This document shows, in pieces, positions 22,214-26,819 of a stretch of 64,000 nucleotides of DNA. The stretch is from contig JADGNZ010000012.1 in the NCBI GenBank assembly GCA_017883205.1, positions 72,151-136,150 on the forward strand. The letters run 5' to 3'. Numbering within the stretch: position 1 is the first letter of the stretch; each line of letters starts with the position of its first letter. The notes below the pieces were generated by a model. It had not been told where the DNA came from. It was given only the letters and a program-made list of their open reading frames with translations, and made no database searches. The DNA comes from Thermoanaerobaculia bacterium. Its GTDB lineage: Bacteria > Acidobacteriota > Thermoanaerobaculia > Gp7-AA8. Made by a program: the position numbers and the translations under genes.

Positions 22214-22350
22214 CGGGGGTCGGTAGTCGGGGGTCGGGTGTCGGAGAGATTTCGGGCAACCGCCAGGCACAGAATGGGGGAGCCAACCCTTGGGAACCGA
22301 CACGGAATAGATCGGAATCAAGACGCTCCGACCCCCGACTCCCGACTCAC
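22214..22350. repeat. GTCGGGGGTCG-type low-complexity repeat
   Basis: Runs of GTCGGTAGTCGGGGGTCGG at 22214-22245 and, in inverted sense, CCGACCCCCGACTCCCGAC at about 22329-22347. The same family recurs at 51535-51668 and 60980-61075. The inverted copy encodes the last residues of the neighbouring deaminase. Confidence 0.7.
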
Positions 22351-22773
22351 CACCTCCGCCCCCAGATCAATCAACTCGATCCCGGTCTCTTTCGCCACCT
22401 CGCGCGAGCGCTCATCGCGGTAAAACTCGCCGTAGTAAATTTTGCGGATTCCGGCGTTGGCGATGAGCTTGAAGCAGTTCCAGCAGGGAGATGCCGTGGT
22501 GTACAGCTCGGCCCCGTCGATGGCGATGCCATTTTTTGCCGCTTGCAAAATCGCATTGGCCTCGGCATGGACAGTTGTGACGCAGTGGCCATCCTCCATC
22601 ACGCAGCCGGCGTCGTCACAGTGCGGCAAACCTCGCAGCGAGCCGTTGTAACCGGTCGAAAGCACCGTACGGTCGCGAACGATGACCGCTCCCACCCGCT
22701 TGCGCGGACAGGTCGAGCGCGTGGCTGCCTGGTGCGCGATTCCCATGAAGTATTCGTTCCATCCGGCACGCAT
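22318..22773 (-). CDS. dCMP deaminase (ComEB-like)
   Basis: The ATG at 22773 (M-R-A-G-W-N-E-Y-F-M) gives 151 residues of a zinc-dependent cytidine/deoxycytidylate deaminase: V-H-A-E-A-N-A-I-L (catalytic His and Glu) and S-P-C-W-N-C (two Zn cysteines), with additional Cys/His in C-D-D-A-G-C typical of dCMP deaminases. It converts dCMP to dUMP for thymidylate synthesis. The C-terminal V-V-S-R-E-S-G-V-G-A-S is encoded by the intergenic repeat family, so the natural C-terminus has been altered. The receiver gene to its left is divergent. Confidence 0.88.
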   Translation of the reverse strand: MRAGWNEYFMGIAHQAATRSTCPRKRVGAVIVRDRTVLSTGYNGSLRGLPHCDDAGCVMEDGHCVTTVHAEANAILQAAKNGIAIDGAELYTTASPCWNCFKLIANAGIRKIYYGEFYRDERSREVAKETGIELIDLGAEVVSRESGVGAS

Positions 22774-22817
22774 GACCCCGGATTCTACATGCGCACGAAA
22801 CCTGCAGAGCTGCCAAC

Positions 22818-23180
22818 ATGCCCTCAAAAGCCAAGGTGCTCATCGTAGAGGACAACTCTGACGTCCGGAGACTCTATGCAATCGGCCTCAATCAGCGCGG
22901 CTTCGAGGTAAAGCTTGCCGCGAACGGTGCCGAAGCGGTCGAACGGATCATGGCCGAGAAGCCGGACATCCTGCTCCTTGACTGGCTCATGCCCCTCATG
23001 GATGGCGACGAAGTGCTGCGCAGGATCGGCGTGCACAACAGTCACCACATGCCCGTGATCGTGATCAGCGGGCAGCCCGAGCCCGACGAGCGCGATCCGC
23101 GCATCCAGAGCTGGCTGGTGAAACCGGTCTCGATCGACGAGCTCGTCGCCGAGATCGAGCGGCCTCTGATGTCGATCTAG
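22818..23180 (+). CDS. Single-domain response regulator (CheY-like receiver)
   Basis: A 120-residue receiver domain: K-V-L-I-V-E-D-N-S (acidic pair), the phosphoacceptor Asp in L-L-L-D-W-L-M-P-L-M-D-G, the conserved Ser in V-I-S-G and Lys in L-V-K-P-V-S. It has no output domain, so it would act through protein contacts or phosphorelay. No histidine kinase is adjacent. The FHA gene begins 38 bp downstream, which hints at a shared signalling unit. Confidence 0.9.
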   Translation: MPSKAKVLIVEDNSDVRRLYAIGLNQRGFEVKLAANGAEAVERIMAEKPDILLLDWLMPLMDGDEVLRRIGVHNSHHMPVIVISGQPEPDERDPRIQSWLVKPVSIDELVAEIERPLMSI

Positions 23181-23218: not shown

Positions 23219-23695
23219 ATGGCCAAGCTCTTTTTCGTCGGGCTCGACGGCACTGAGAAGAGTTATCGCTTGCAGACGCACCGGCCGTTCACGGTCGGAC
23301 GCGATCCCGGCAACGACATCATTCTCCGCGACCCGAAAGTCTCACGGCATCACGCCGAGATCATCTTCGAGCGCGGATTCTTCGTCGTCCACGATCTCTC
23401 CAGCGCCAACGGCACCTACATCAACAGCAAACGCGTCCGCGTAGCGCCTCTGACCCACGCCGCGAAGGTGCGGATGGGCAACACGTACGGACGGTTCTCG
23501 GAAGAGCTGCCCACCGAGAGCGACGGCGTGCCCGCCGCGGAGCCGTTCGAACAGCCGCTGCCCATTCCCACCGGCAGCCAGGGCCCCTTCGCCGCGATCG
23601 AGTCGATGCAGACGTCGCAACTCGAACGTTACAGCCTCTCCACCCAACCGCACGAACTACTCTCCGAGGAAGATCTAAAAAAAAAAGCGGAGTAG
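23219..23695 (+). CDS. FHA-domain protein (N-terminal part of a frame-interrupted gene)
   Basis: A 158-residue frame with an FHA phosphothreonine-binding domain: G27-R28-D-P-G-N-D-I, the S42-R43-H44-H45 signature, and S-S-A-N64-G65-T. After about residue 95 the sequence is linker-like. The frame ends L-K-K-K-A-E-stop immediately after ten A residues. One more A, or a -1 slip, would join it to the following membrane-domain frame, which has no convincing start of its own. I therefore regard 23219-24507 as one gene encoding FHA, an acidic/Pro-rich linker, membrane spans and a C-terminal domain. Confidence 0.85.
   Translation: MAKLFFVGLDGTEKSYRLQTHRPFTVGRDPGNDIILRDPKVSRHHAEIIFERGFFVVHDLSSANGTYINSKRVRVAPLTHAAKVRMGNTYGRFSEELPTESDGVPAAEPFEQPLPIPTGSQGPFAAIESMQTSQLERYSLSTQPHELLSEEDLKKKAE
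23677..23686 (+). other. A10 slippery run joining the two frames
   Basis: Ten consecutive A residues after C-T, in zero-frame context CTA-AAA-AAA-AAA-GCG. The downstream open frame is the -1 frame, reading AAA-AAA-AAA-AGC-GGA-GTA-GAC. Such runs allow RNA-polymerase or ribosome slippage, and are also classic places for assembly or sequencing indels. Confidence 0.8.
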
Positions 23696-24507
23696 ACGAT
23701 GACGATGCGACGGTAACGACGGTCGATCCGCCAACCGAGCCGATTGGCGACATCCCTCCGCTTCCACCCAGGCCCGCACCGGTCAGCCCGCCTGCTCCGC
23801 CGCCGCCCGCGGCTGTGTTCACTCGTTCGCGCTACCAGTTCATGAGCGGCATCCCCGCGGGCGAGACCGCGTACATCCGCGGAGACGATGGCGACGCCCT
23901 GCTGTCGTACCGAAGCTTTGCCAGCGTCGTAGGAATCATCGCCGCGCTGATGTCGGCAGTCGTACTCGTTGCGGGAGCCGCCGGCGTGCTGTTCCTGCTG
24001 CTGGAGCGGCGGCCGCTCCCGGCCATCGCGGCGATGATCCTCAGCGCCGCCTTCGCCGCGATGATCGTCATGCTCAATCCGGCGACGAACGTAACGATCT
24101 TCGAAGGTGCGGCACCGGTGATATCGATCGCACAGCAGCCAGGGGTCAGCTTCCCGACGACAACGTGGATCGTGTCAGCACCGGATGGTCAGCCGATCGT
24201 TCGCATTCGCAAGTCGTTCTTCTCCGGCTTCGGCCGCAATCGCTGGAAAATGGCCGGCGAAACATCGAGCGGCGAAGCGGTCGAGGAGTCGCTCACGCGC
24301 GCCATCATCCGCAAACTCTTCGGCAAGTTCGCCCGCGCCTACCAGTCGAACCTGCGCCTGATCTGGGACGGGGACGAAGCGGGATGGATCATTCGCCGGA
24401 CCGATGCTTTGGGCCGCGCCGACGTGCTGGATCTGCATCCAGCGCTGACGCTCGATCGCCGCGCAGCGGTGGCGCTGGCGGTGCTGGTGTTGGGTGGCGA
24501 GCCGTGA
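23677..24507 (+). CDS. Membrane domain following the FHA gene (-1 frame continuation)
   Basis: In the -1 frame the chain continues S-G-V-D-D-D-D-A-T-V, through a Pro-rich linker (about 23735-23815), into two hydrophobic segments (S-V-V-G-I-I-A-A-L-M-S-A-V-V-L-V-A and A-I-A-A-M-I-L-S-A-A-F-A-A-M-I-V). A soluble C-terminal domain follows with R-I-R-K-S-F-F-S-G-F-G-R-N-R-W and L-I-W-D-G-D-E-A-G-W-I-I, loosely recalling beta-rich scramblase-like (LURP-one/Scr) domains. No ATG with a good ribosome-binding site precedes the domain; the first GTG lies at 23815 in the middle of the linker. This supports expression as an extension of the FHA frame. Confidence 0.7.
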   Translation, partial: KKKSGVDDDDATVTTVDPPTEPIGDIPPLPPRPAPVSPPAPPPPAAVFTRSRYQFMSGIPAGETAYIRGDDGDALLSYRSFASVVGIIAALMSAVVLVAGAAGVLFLLLERRPLPAIAAMILSAAFAAMIVMLNPATNVTIFEGAAPVISIAQQPGVSFPTTTWIVSAPDGQPIVRIRKSFFSGFGRNRWKMAGETSSGEAVEESLTRAIIRKLFGKFARAYQSNLRLIWDGDEAGWIIRRTDALGRADVLDLHPALTLDRRAAVALAVLVLGGEP

Positions 24508-24510
24508 AAC

Positions 24511-26736
24511 CTACTTCATCGGCTGAATCTCGATGCCGGTGTAGTAGTGCGTCAGGATCTGCTGTGCGGTCCTTCCCTTCATGGCCATGCCATACGCGCC
24601 GACCTGGCAGAAACCGACGCCGTGGCCCCATCCTTTGCCGTAGAACGTATAGCGGTCCATACCGTCGGGATCCTGCGTCTTCTCGTAGACGAACAGGTTG
24701 TCCGGCACGTTCAGCGACCAGCGCACGGGAAGGCCGCGCAACACGAACGTGCGGCCGTTCTCCGCGGTCACTTCGAGCTCGGCGATGCGCTGCGAGGCGT
24801 CGACCGTCAGCGGGCGGATGCCCTGCAGTCTCGTGATCGGATTGCGTTTGTTGATCGAGACGACGAGATCGTCCGCGCGGTAGCTGCGCGTCCAACTGGC
24901 GAAGCTCGAGCTTCGGTCGAACGACGCGCCGTCGAGATAGGCATTGATGATCAGCGCCACCGGCGTCTTGCGAGCGTCGGAATCGATCGTGGCACGGTCT
25001 CCGATCGTCACCGGCGCGTTGCGGTACTCCTGATAGCGATCGCCAAACTTGCGAAACACGAGAACGTTGGCGGGCAGCAGAAAGTGCGTCTGTTTGCCGT
25101 CGATCTTCATCGTCACATTGCGCGCCGACACGCTGACGATCTTCCCGGTCGCTTCGCTGACTGCCGCATGTTTACGAAGCCACGAACCAAGGAGACCGAG
25201 CAGCTCATCGCGAGGCATCGCCGCATTCAGATCCGCCCTATCGATCGCCTCGGCTGGCAGGAATCCGAACTTGATGAGAAACGCCGCGGCGCGATACGGC
25301 GGCGTGTCTTTGGCCGCGGTCTGCGGGAAGTAGTAGCTGCGGTCCTCTGGCATCGTCACGACGCCCGCGTAGCGATCGATGCCGAGTGTGGCGGCGAGAT
25401 ACGTGAGCACATCGCCGCGCCGCGATGATGTGGGCGCGGCCGCGTTCCGCGGATCGAAATGGAGCGTCTGCATCGCCGCCGTCACTGCCTGTTCGACGTC
25501 GCGCGCGCTCCACGAGGTTCCGGAGTCACTCAAACCGGCGAGCGCACTGAAGAGCCGCGCGTTCATCTGCTGTTCCGTGAGCAAACCGCTGTCACTGCGT
25601 CCGGCGATCGTGATGACGTCATCCTCTACGCAGCGGACACGTTTCAGATACGGCTCGTTGCGGCCGGGAAACATCGTACCGACGTCCGAGGTCTCGCCGC
25701 CGCAGGTGGCCGTGTAGAGCGCATCGATCGGCTGGCCGTTGTACGTGGCCACGAGCCCCGCGGTCTCGCGCACGGCGCGGTCGGTGAGCGCTTCCTCTCC
25801 CGAGAAGCCGTTGTAGGCCTGGCAGGCGGGTCCGGCGCAGATGTCGTAACCCTCGCGCTTGAACTGGCCGAGGTTGCGGACTGCGTAGGTGCGGGCGGCG
25901 ATGGCCTGCGCTTTGAGCGCCTCCACCTCATCGTAAATCTTCGACCCCATCTCGGCGGGAACGACACCGCGCAGATAGTCTTCGAGATTCAGCTCATTGA
26001 TGATGTTGTAGGTTCCGCGGGCGTTGATGAAGATGCGCGCCGCGGTGCGGTACGGTTTGTCGATGATCGTGAGCGTGTCGGCGCTGACCGGCATCACCAG
26101 CACCGATTCTCCGTTCAGCGTGAACGGCTCCCCTTCGTCGTCCAGGCCCTGATGCCGCTTGTCGAACGGCTGATCCGCGGGCCGTTTGACGATGAGGAGA
26201 TTGGTGCCGAATCCGTGTTGCGTGAGCTGATCGCGAAGCGGCTGCGCGTCGCTCGATGTGGCGAAGTCGCCGGCGATGATGCGATACGCCGTGCCGCCGG
26301 TATCGATCAGCACATCAACGCGCTGCTGACTCTCCGCACGCAACTTCCCGGCAAGCGCGTTGGCGCTGGGAAGATCGGAGACAGAGCTGACCTGCACCGC
26401 GTAGTGCGGCGGCGCATCGCTGAGAGGTGCCGTCATCGTGAACCCGCGCCGAATCGTGGAGGAGCCGGTGTCCGTGATGAGGTAGTAGCCGCCGGCGATG
26501 CGCGGAAAGGTGACCGAGGCTTGATCGTTGATCAATCCCACTTTGATGCGTGGCTCTACGATCGTCTTCGCGGGTGCAGCCATGGGCGTCAGAGCGTTCG
26601 CCGAACGGACGGGCTGTGGAGCTGTACTGATCGCCGGCGGCGGGGGGAGGATCGGGCGGGCGGGTTGGGCGGCCGGGGGCGCGGAAGCGCACGCGGCAAG
26701 GATCAGGAGTGACAATGCGATTGCAGTCCGTTTCAT
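24511..26736 (-). CDS. SpoIID/LytB-domain lipoprotein with SPOR domain
   Basis: The ATG at 26736 gives a 741-residue lipoprotein (L-L-I-L-A-A-C). After a Pro/Ala linker comes a SPOR-like domain at about 110-190 (H-Y-A-V-Q-V-S-S-V, Y-R-I-I-A-G-D-F), which binds denuded septal peptidoglycan. The SpoIID region follows (L-E-D-Y-L-R-G-V-V-P-A-E-M, A-L-K-A-Q-A-I-A-A-R-T-Y-A, Y-T-A-T-C-G-G-E-T) and ends G-W-G-H-G-V-G-F-C-Q-V-G-A-Y-G-M-A. SpoIID-type domains are lytic transglycosylases or amidase enhancers. An insert of about 330 residues splits the SpoIID region between the C-G-G and G-H-G-V-G-F motifs. The likely role is cell-wall remodelling at division. Confidence 0.87.
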   Translation of the reverse strand: MKRTAIALSLLILAACASAPPAAQPARPILPPPPAISTAPQPVRSANALTPMAAPAKTIVEPRIKVGLINDQASVTFPRIAGGYYLITDTGSSTIRRGFTMTAPLSDAPPHYAVQVSSVSDLPSANALAGKLRAESQQRVDVLIDTGGTAYRIIAGDFATSSDAQPLRDQLTQHGFGTNLLIVKRPADQPFDKRHQGLDDEGEPFTLNGESVLVMPVSADTLTIIDKPYRTAARIFINARGTYNIINELNLEDYLRGVVPAEMGSKIYDEVEALKAQAIAARTYAVRNLGQFKREGYDICAGPACQAYNGFSGEEALTDRAVRETAGLVATYNGQPIDALYTATCGGETSDVGTMFPGRNEPYLKRVRCVEDDVITIAGRSDSGLLTEQQMNARLFSALAGLSDSGTSWSARDVEQAVTAAMQTLHFDPRNAAAPTSSRRGDVLTYLAATLGIDRYAGVVTMPEDRSYYFPQTAAKDTPPYRAAAFLIKFGFLPAEAIDRADLNAAMPRDELLGLLGSWLRKHAAVSEATGKIVSVSARNVTMKIDGKQTHFLLPANVLVFRKFGDRYQEYRNAPVTIGDRATIDSDARKTPVALIINAYLDGASFDRSSSFASWTRSYRADDLVVSINKRNPITRLQGIRPLTVDASQRIAELEVTAENGRTFVLRGLPVRWSLNVPDNLFVYEKTQDPDGMDRYTFYGKGWGHGVGFCQVGAYGMAMKGRTAQQILTHYYTGIEIQPMK

Positions 26737-26819
26737 CGTTGGGCGTCCTTGCAAGAAGAGAGACAGCAACGGAGTAGCCTGTGGCTCACCGCTGTTCTCC
26801 GAGGTACACTTTTCGAACT

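Follow-up and report, generated by a model that had tools for sequence, protein, structure and literature searches.

A conserved A9/A10 run in an FHA-domain gene of Thermoanaerobaculia-type bacteria points to soluble and membrane-tethered products of one gene by programmed slippage

The locus described here raises the question of how the downstream part of a gene is expressed when the frame leading into it has already stopped. In the window, by which is meant the whole 64 kb stretch of Thermoanaerobaculia DNA that was analysed, an FHA-domain protein terminates shortly after ten A residues, and the -1 frame remains open for a further stretch of coding sequence. The elements concerned are:

23219..23695, plus strand, FHA-domain protein in the unshifted frame (158 aa, ending EEDLKKKAE before the stop; Pfam FHA match)
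23677..23686, plus strand, A10 slippery run, beginning at the third codon position (ctA AAA AAA AAA)
23693..23695, plus strand, TAG closing the unshifted frame, two codons after the A10 run
23686..24507, plus strand, -1 frame extension, open from the run to its stop (TGA 24505-24507)

The Pfam FHA domain matches residues 25-87 (E 4.3e-19) with 69.1 bits against a gathering score of 20.7. An earlier note on this DNA had placed the end of the FHA frame just past ten A residues, which was confirmed. As the bases read, the -1 frame extension is reached only by slippage, either through one additional A in the RNA or through a -1 shift of the ribosome. The same note had called the downstream frame startless, which holds for the first 42 codons past the run, where no start codon was found, but not for the whole frame, as the ORF listing has a GTG at 23815 that opens an ORF of 230 aa. 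No Shine-Dalgarno-like stretch was seen by eye in the 16 bases preceding this GTG.

The run is the single occurrence of A9 or longer in the window and its sole A/T run of at least nine. Shuffling the window gave 0.08 A9 matches on average, with none of 100 shuffles reaching the two overlapping matches of the run. Across the whole 6.37 Mb genome there are five runs of at least A9, three of A10 and two of A9, together with roughly 34 of A8 exactly (47 overlapping A8 matches minus those within longer runs), such that the counts drop with length and then rise again at ten. A chance run was considered as an explanation and dropped once relatives showed a run at the same junction.

The membrane part of the gene was searched for in 100 related genomes at a threshold of E <= 0.001, with matches in 20, including 18/18 of the family, whose genomes are Acidobacteriota MAGs of Thermoanaerobaculia type and mostly fragmented. 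The FHA part was also present at 19 of the 22 membrane-part loci, the remaining three being two weak matches without an FHA part (L020 and L022) and the far end of the G017 gene, lying on another contig (L021). A run was found at the junction in 16 of these 19 loci, A10 in 12 and A9 in four, starting in every case on the third base of a codon. The unshifted frame stops 0-3 codons beyond the run (window's copy included) and the membrane part lies out of the FHA frame; a fused frame was seen in none of the 16. The run is kept in 16 genomes of a single family, representing at least 11 genera, and the protein sequence after it is conserved, with the flanks of the run differing to the extent of 13 genomes' worth among the 16 loci. 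The three loci that have no run carry a single ORF of 400-415 aa, two of them (L017 and L018) belonging to one genus of the same family and the third (L019) to another family of the same order.

Protein alignment of the shifted frame over 17 other loci gave 26-71% identity to the window's copy, which shows conservation of this frame at the protein level. In a protein tree, for which long branches were warned of, the 16 run-bearing loci form one clade (support 98/97) beside L017 and L018. Most simply, the fusion would be ancestral and the run would have arisen once, taking the two parts out of their common frame. As the family genomes G005 and G014 are without the run, the short product would not be indispensable in the family. 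The earlier note had proposed slippage and a comparison of run length among relatives, and its proposal is supported by A9 or A10 between disjoint frames in 16 of 19 loci, the run-less three being naturally fused, which is consistent with two products being made.

Long A runs were also found to concentrate in two other genes. All sites of at least A9 outside the FHA gene were retrieved from 13 genomes (G000-G012), giving 59 sites. Nine of the 18 sites with at least A10 lie in a DUF4388 gene, eight in a DUF374 gene and one elsewhere, while the 41 A9 sites comprise three in DUF4388 and 38 elsewhere. When the FHA runs of these genomes are counted as well (ten A10 and two A9), 27 of 28 runs of at least A10 fall within the three genes, which are mutually unlinked. 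Both additional genes are outside the window:

G000:C92:17000-17009 (L101, L103), A10 splitting a DUF374 acyltransferase gene (Pfam E 4e-28)
G000:C84:5306-5315 (L102, L133), in-frame A10 in a DUF4388 gene (Pfam E 4.8e-28)

For DUF374, we retrieved 30 of the 42 listed matches, with no match in G011. A10 or A11 is present in 12 of the 17 family loci, and in all 12 the C-terminal part follows in the -1 frame, while five family loci and 13/13 outgroup loci have no run and a single frame. As these frames stand, the full-length DUF374 enzyme also needs slippage in the run-bearing loci. The unshifted DUF374 product ends at residue 190 in seven of the 12 loci, an apparent conservation that we read by eye as a by-product of an ATGAAC conserved in the true frame, and a functional short DUF374 product is therefore not proposed.

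For DUF4388, the best 30 loci were retrieved, among which all 15 family loci carry A9-A11 and read on in frame, with a -1-frame stop after the run at the same residue (180) in each (14 TGA, one TAA). This stop is made by a wobble T in 15/15, T accounting for 9.6% of third positions. The DUF4388 locus in G018 (L149), from another family of the same order, carries A10 with the roles exchanged, giving 195 aa unslipped and 274 slipped, and the other 14 outgroup loci among the best 30 are without a run; G004, G014 and G017 gave distant paralogues only. Judged by these layouts, slipping would yield the short form of DUF4388 and the long form of DUF374 and FHA.

Among the 39 runs of at least A9 outside the three genes, clear recurrence was limited to L054/L056, L024/L051 and L095/L100 (one genome). 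In the first of these, L054 (G001) and L056 (G002), near G001:C218, G002:C174 and C79, A9 lies in related lysine-rich frames of two congeners and may be simple lysine coding.

The direction of slippage bears on the mechanism. The two frames of the FHA gene are joined by one extra A in 13 of the 16 loci and by one A fewer in three (L005, L007 and L016), of which L005 and L007 (genus g6; genomes G007 and G015) are sister in the tree to L009 (G008), a locus requiring the extra A. With both directions needed, a -1 ribosomal shift cannot serve all loci, whereas slippage of RNA polymerase on A9/A10 could. Transcriptional slippage would call for an unbroken stretch of at least 8-9 A or T at the frame transition, and the FHA junction has A9 or A10 in 16 of 19 loci. 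Across the 43 run-bearing family genes (FHA, DUF4388 and DUF374) there is no run of 7-8, the minimum being nine, with DUF4388 having nine A10, four A9 and two A11, and DUF374 ten A10 and two A11. Lysine codons within the FHA and DUF4388 runs are AAA in 85 cases and AAG in six, compared with 100 AAA and 168 AAG elsewhere in those genes (Fisher P 1e-22, kinship ignored). No conserved downstream structure was detected in the 16 FHA loci (60-base windows, mean z -0.09), strong downstream folding being confined to one DUF374 locus (z -4.3), and no conserved Shine-Dalgarno-like stretch was found upstream of the run, with such a stretch in only two of the 16 FHA loci.

The sequence A_AAA_AAA is a heptamer for -1 frameshifting by the ribosome and stands in phase here, such that programmed ribosomal frameshifting on a uniform mRNA would serve 13 of the 16 FHA loci too, and a -1 type of shift is needed or used in those 13, in 12/12 run-bearing DUF374 loci and in 15/15 DUF4388 loci. 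We consider this improbable, in that three FHA loci call for +1, that seven A would do for the ribosome yet no gene of the 43 is below nine, and that a conserved stem or Shine-Dalgarno-like stretch, features often but not always present, is missing. A direction that is not conserved is moreover taken as a sign of transcriptional slippage in passages of Antonov et al. (2013; PMC3711429). As such, runs that are never below nine, a direction switched in 3/16 loci and the lack of a conserved stimulatory RNA signal favour transcriptional slippage by RNA polymerase, which is likely, on these comparisons, to operate rather than ribosomal frameshifting. For programmed slippage at A9/A10 as such, the evidence from comparison of relatives is strong.

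The stretch directly after the run would be translated only by shifted ribosomes or from slipped transcripts, and contains one short motif:

23725..23745, plus strand, DPPTEPI, a motif of the linker that is read only after a shift (T-[ED]-[PQ] in 14/16 run-bearing relatives)

The motif was not found in two of the 16 run-bearing loci, and in 12 of the 14 loci that have it, it precedes the first possible start codon; its conservation ahead of any start speaks for a true fusion. The linker threonine is a candidate phosphothreonine site and, by way of speculation, perhaps a ligand of the FHA domain. The position of the motif bears on whether FHA and membrane parts could instead be two separate proteins, the membrane part having its own ribosome binding or being re-initiated past the FHA stop. 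Such coupled genes could draw on the 230 aa ORF from GTG 23815 and, in L014 and L015, on an ATG within nine codons of the run. We hold two separate proteins to be very unlikely, as the first start in the shifted frame falls anywhere between codons 2 and 58, at no shared position, the motif comes before it in these 12 of 14 loci, the run would be left unexplained and three relatives are fused.

Long A runs mutate readily and homopolymers are error-prone in sequencing, and the length of the run differs between species (9-11), as might be expected if replication altered it and so toggled the fusion between cells by phase variation. About a third of the loci would then be expected in the fused frame, which is seen in 0/16 FHA and 0/12 run-bearing DUF374 loci, and changes in the flanks offset changes in length such that the frame relation is kept (DUF374 runs occur in phases 0, 1 and 2, always with -1), making phase variation extremely unlikely. 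The alternative raised in the earlier note, a one-base error of sequencing or assembly in an error-prone homopolymer, has a negligible probability as a general account, given that 16 independent genomes from different projects share the junction at one codon, with a stop following the run in every one, and that DUF4388 runs of equal length in the same genomes are in frame in 15/15.

The product of the shifted frame was modelled from an alignment of 18 sequences (mean pLDDT 85.7), with strands followed by two long helices forming a hairpin, then a barrel and a C-terminal helix:

23926..24003, plus strand, first predicted membrane helix (model residues 80-105)
24013..24072, plus strand, second predicted membrane helix (model residues 109-128)
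23809..24504, plus strand, tubby/LURP-one-like beta barrel round a C-terminal helix (model; hairpin inserted after the first strands)

The description of the -1 frame in the earlier note, as leading through a linker to membrane spans and a folded domain, agrees with this model and with the frame being open to 24507. In VIA-align the highest Z scores were obtained with 1zxu (12.7; 138 aligned, 3.1 A), TULP1 (12.2), Tub (11.6) and another TULP1 entry (11.2), followed by a designed protein at 8.4 and unrelated natural proteins at no more than 6.6. We take 1zxu to be a LURP-one-type protein, its entry naming only AT5G01750. Foldseek against the PDB gave nothing significant (best match TULP1, E 0.59), and no Pfam or NCBIfam match to tubby/LURP-one-like families was obtained at E <= 1 with L018, L019, L002 and L012, which is compatible with distant kinship. 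The fold assignment thus follows the VIA-align ranking, Foldseek alone being weak, and on the model we read the shifted part as a tubby/LURP-one-like barrel into which a membrane hairpin of two helices is inserted. Like 1zxu, TULP1 and Tub, the model has a barrel round a buried C-terminal helix; unlike these proteins it has an inserted hairpin and an attached FHA domain, with 10-13% identity in the alignments. With two membrane helices, the FHA domain and the barrel would be on the same side of the membrane, presumably the cytosolic one.

The neighbourhood of the gene is in keeping with a role in signalling:

22818..23180, plus strand, response-regulator-like receiver protein, immediately preceding the FHA gene

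This ORF, which we take from its sequence to be a response-regulator-like receiver, precedes the FHA gene, by tblastn, at 15 of the 16 run-bearing loci, and its retention there suggests a signalling role. No tblastn match to it was obtained at the fused L017, L018 and L019, or at L009, where there are 25 bases of upstream DNA. Two further ORFs, both on the minus strand, also accompany the gene. A large one at 24511-26769, the C-terminal part of which presumably resembles a SpoIID/LytB domain, converges on the FHA gene and adjoins it in most relatives, and one at 22318-22827, which we assume to be deoxycytidylate-deaminase-like, lies in several relatives upstream of the response regulator, and also beside the fused L017 and L018.

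Taking these lines together, it is probable that one gene gives rise to two proteins by programmed slippage, most likely transcriptional, namely a soluble FHA protein and a membrane-tethered fusion. Unslipped mRNA would yield the soluble FHA protein, with Lys-Lys-Lys close to its end right after the run, while mRNA with one A more (one fewer in three relatives) would encode the FHA domain, a Pro-rich linker and the membrane hairpin set in the barrel. The slipping machine would most likely be RNA polymerase, as in Thermus dnaX, and slippage would determine how much of this phosphothreonine reader is free and how much is tethered to the membrane. We infer synthesis of both products, slippage by RNA polymerase and, as the outcome, a switch of localisation. 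If so, slippage would divide a protein that reads phosphothreonine between free and membrane-bound forms, and this division would be kept across one family. The switch of slip direction between sister genera provides a natural test of mechanism, the three genes in the same genomes form a clean set for joint testing of slippage, and the full-length forms of the FHA and DUF374 proteins are overlooked when these genomes are annotated.

The occurrence of three such genes raises the possibility, which we regard as rather unlikely, of a slippage regulon, in which the product ratios of all three would be set jointly by the rate at which RNA polymerase slips on A9-A11. Were this the case, the slip rate could follow ATP level or temperature, such that the reading frame would report the state of the cell, and that state would decide how much of the FHA signalling protein is located at the membrane.

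To our knowledge, few stable chromosomal genes make purposeful use of transcriptional slippage, most cases being insertion sequences, dnaX and secretion genes. Likewise, the FHA regulators OdhI and FhaB/FipA are not slippage genes as far as we know; they have the FHA domain in common with the protein described here, which scores 50-56 bits against their NCBIfam equivalog cut-offs of 125-200.

The device itself is already described for dnaX, Shigella secretion genes and insertion sequences in passages of PMC1088944, PMC3711429 and PMC5009743. A search of open-licence papers gave none linking slippage or frameshifting to Thermoanaerobaculia or to the FHA domain, and no report of the three genes among the matches listed; for slippage and Acidobacteria the only match was PMC3711429, the matching passages of which name Acidobacteria once, in a table of counts. 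In Thermus thermophilus dnaX, according to passages of PMC1088944 and PMC3711429, transcriptional slippage at A9 generates longer and shorter transcripts. On that description the FHA gene resembles dnaX in having a chromosomal A9/A10 run, two proteins sharing an N-terminus and a stop soon after the run, and differs in that the unslipped product is the short one, with slippage adding a membrane anchor and a domain; the two genes have no sequence relation. The DUF4388 gene has the dnaX layout described there, unslipped long and slipped short. In Shigella spa13 and mxiE, slippage yields a C-terminal extension (passages of PMC5009743), as it would lengthen the product of the FHA gene, with the difference that these are unrelated secretion-system genes on a plasmid while the FHA gene is chromosomal and from an uncultured soil lineage. 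The magnesium chelatase cluster has A7-A11 runs, with reporter shifts of 63, 40 and 10% at 11, 9 and 7 A, respectively (passages of PMC3711429), and resembles the FHA gene in that A runs, conserved but of varied length, mark a -1 transition; it is a different gene without a membrane switch, and a change of direction is not reported for it in those passages. For transposases in which the direction is not conserved, transcriptional slippage was inferred by Antonov et al. (passages of PMC3711429). Set beside these systems, the FHA, DUF374 and DUF4388 genes are new cases of a known mechanism, the set of three genes being the unusual side.
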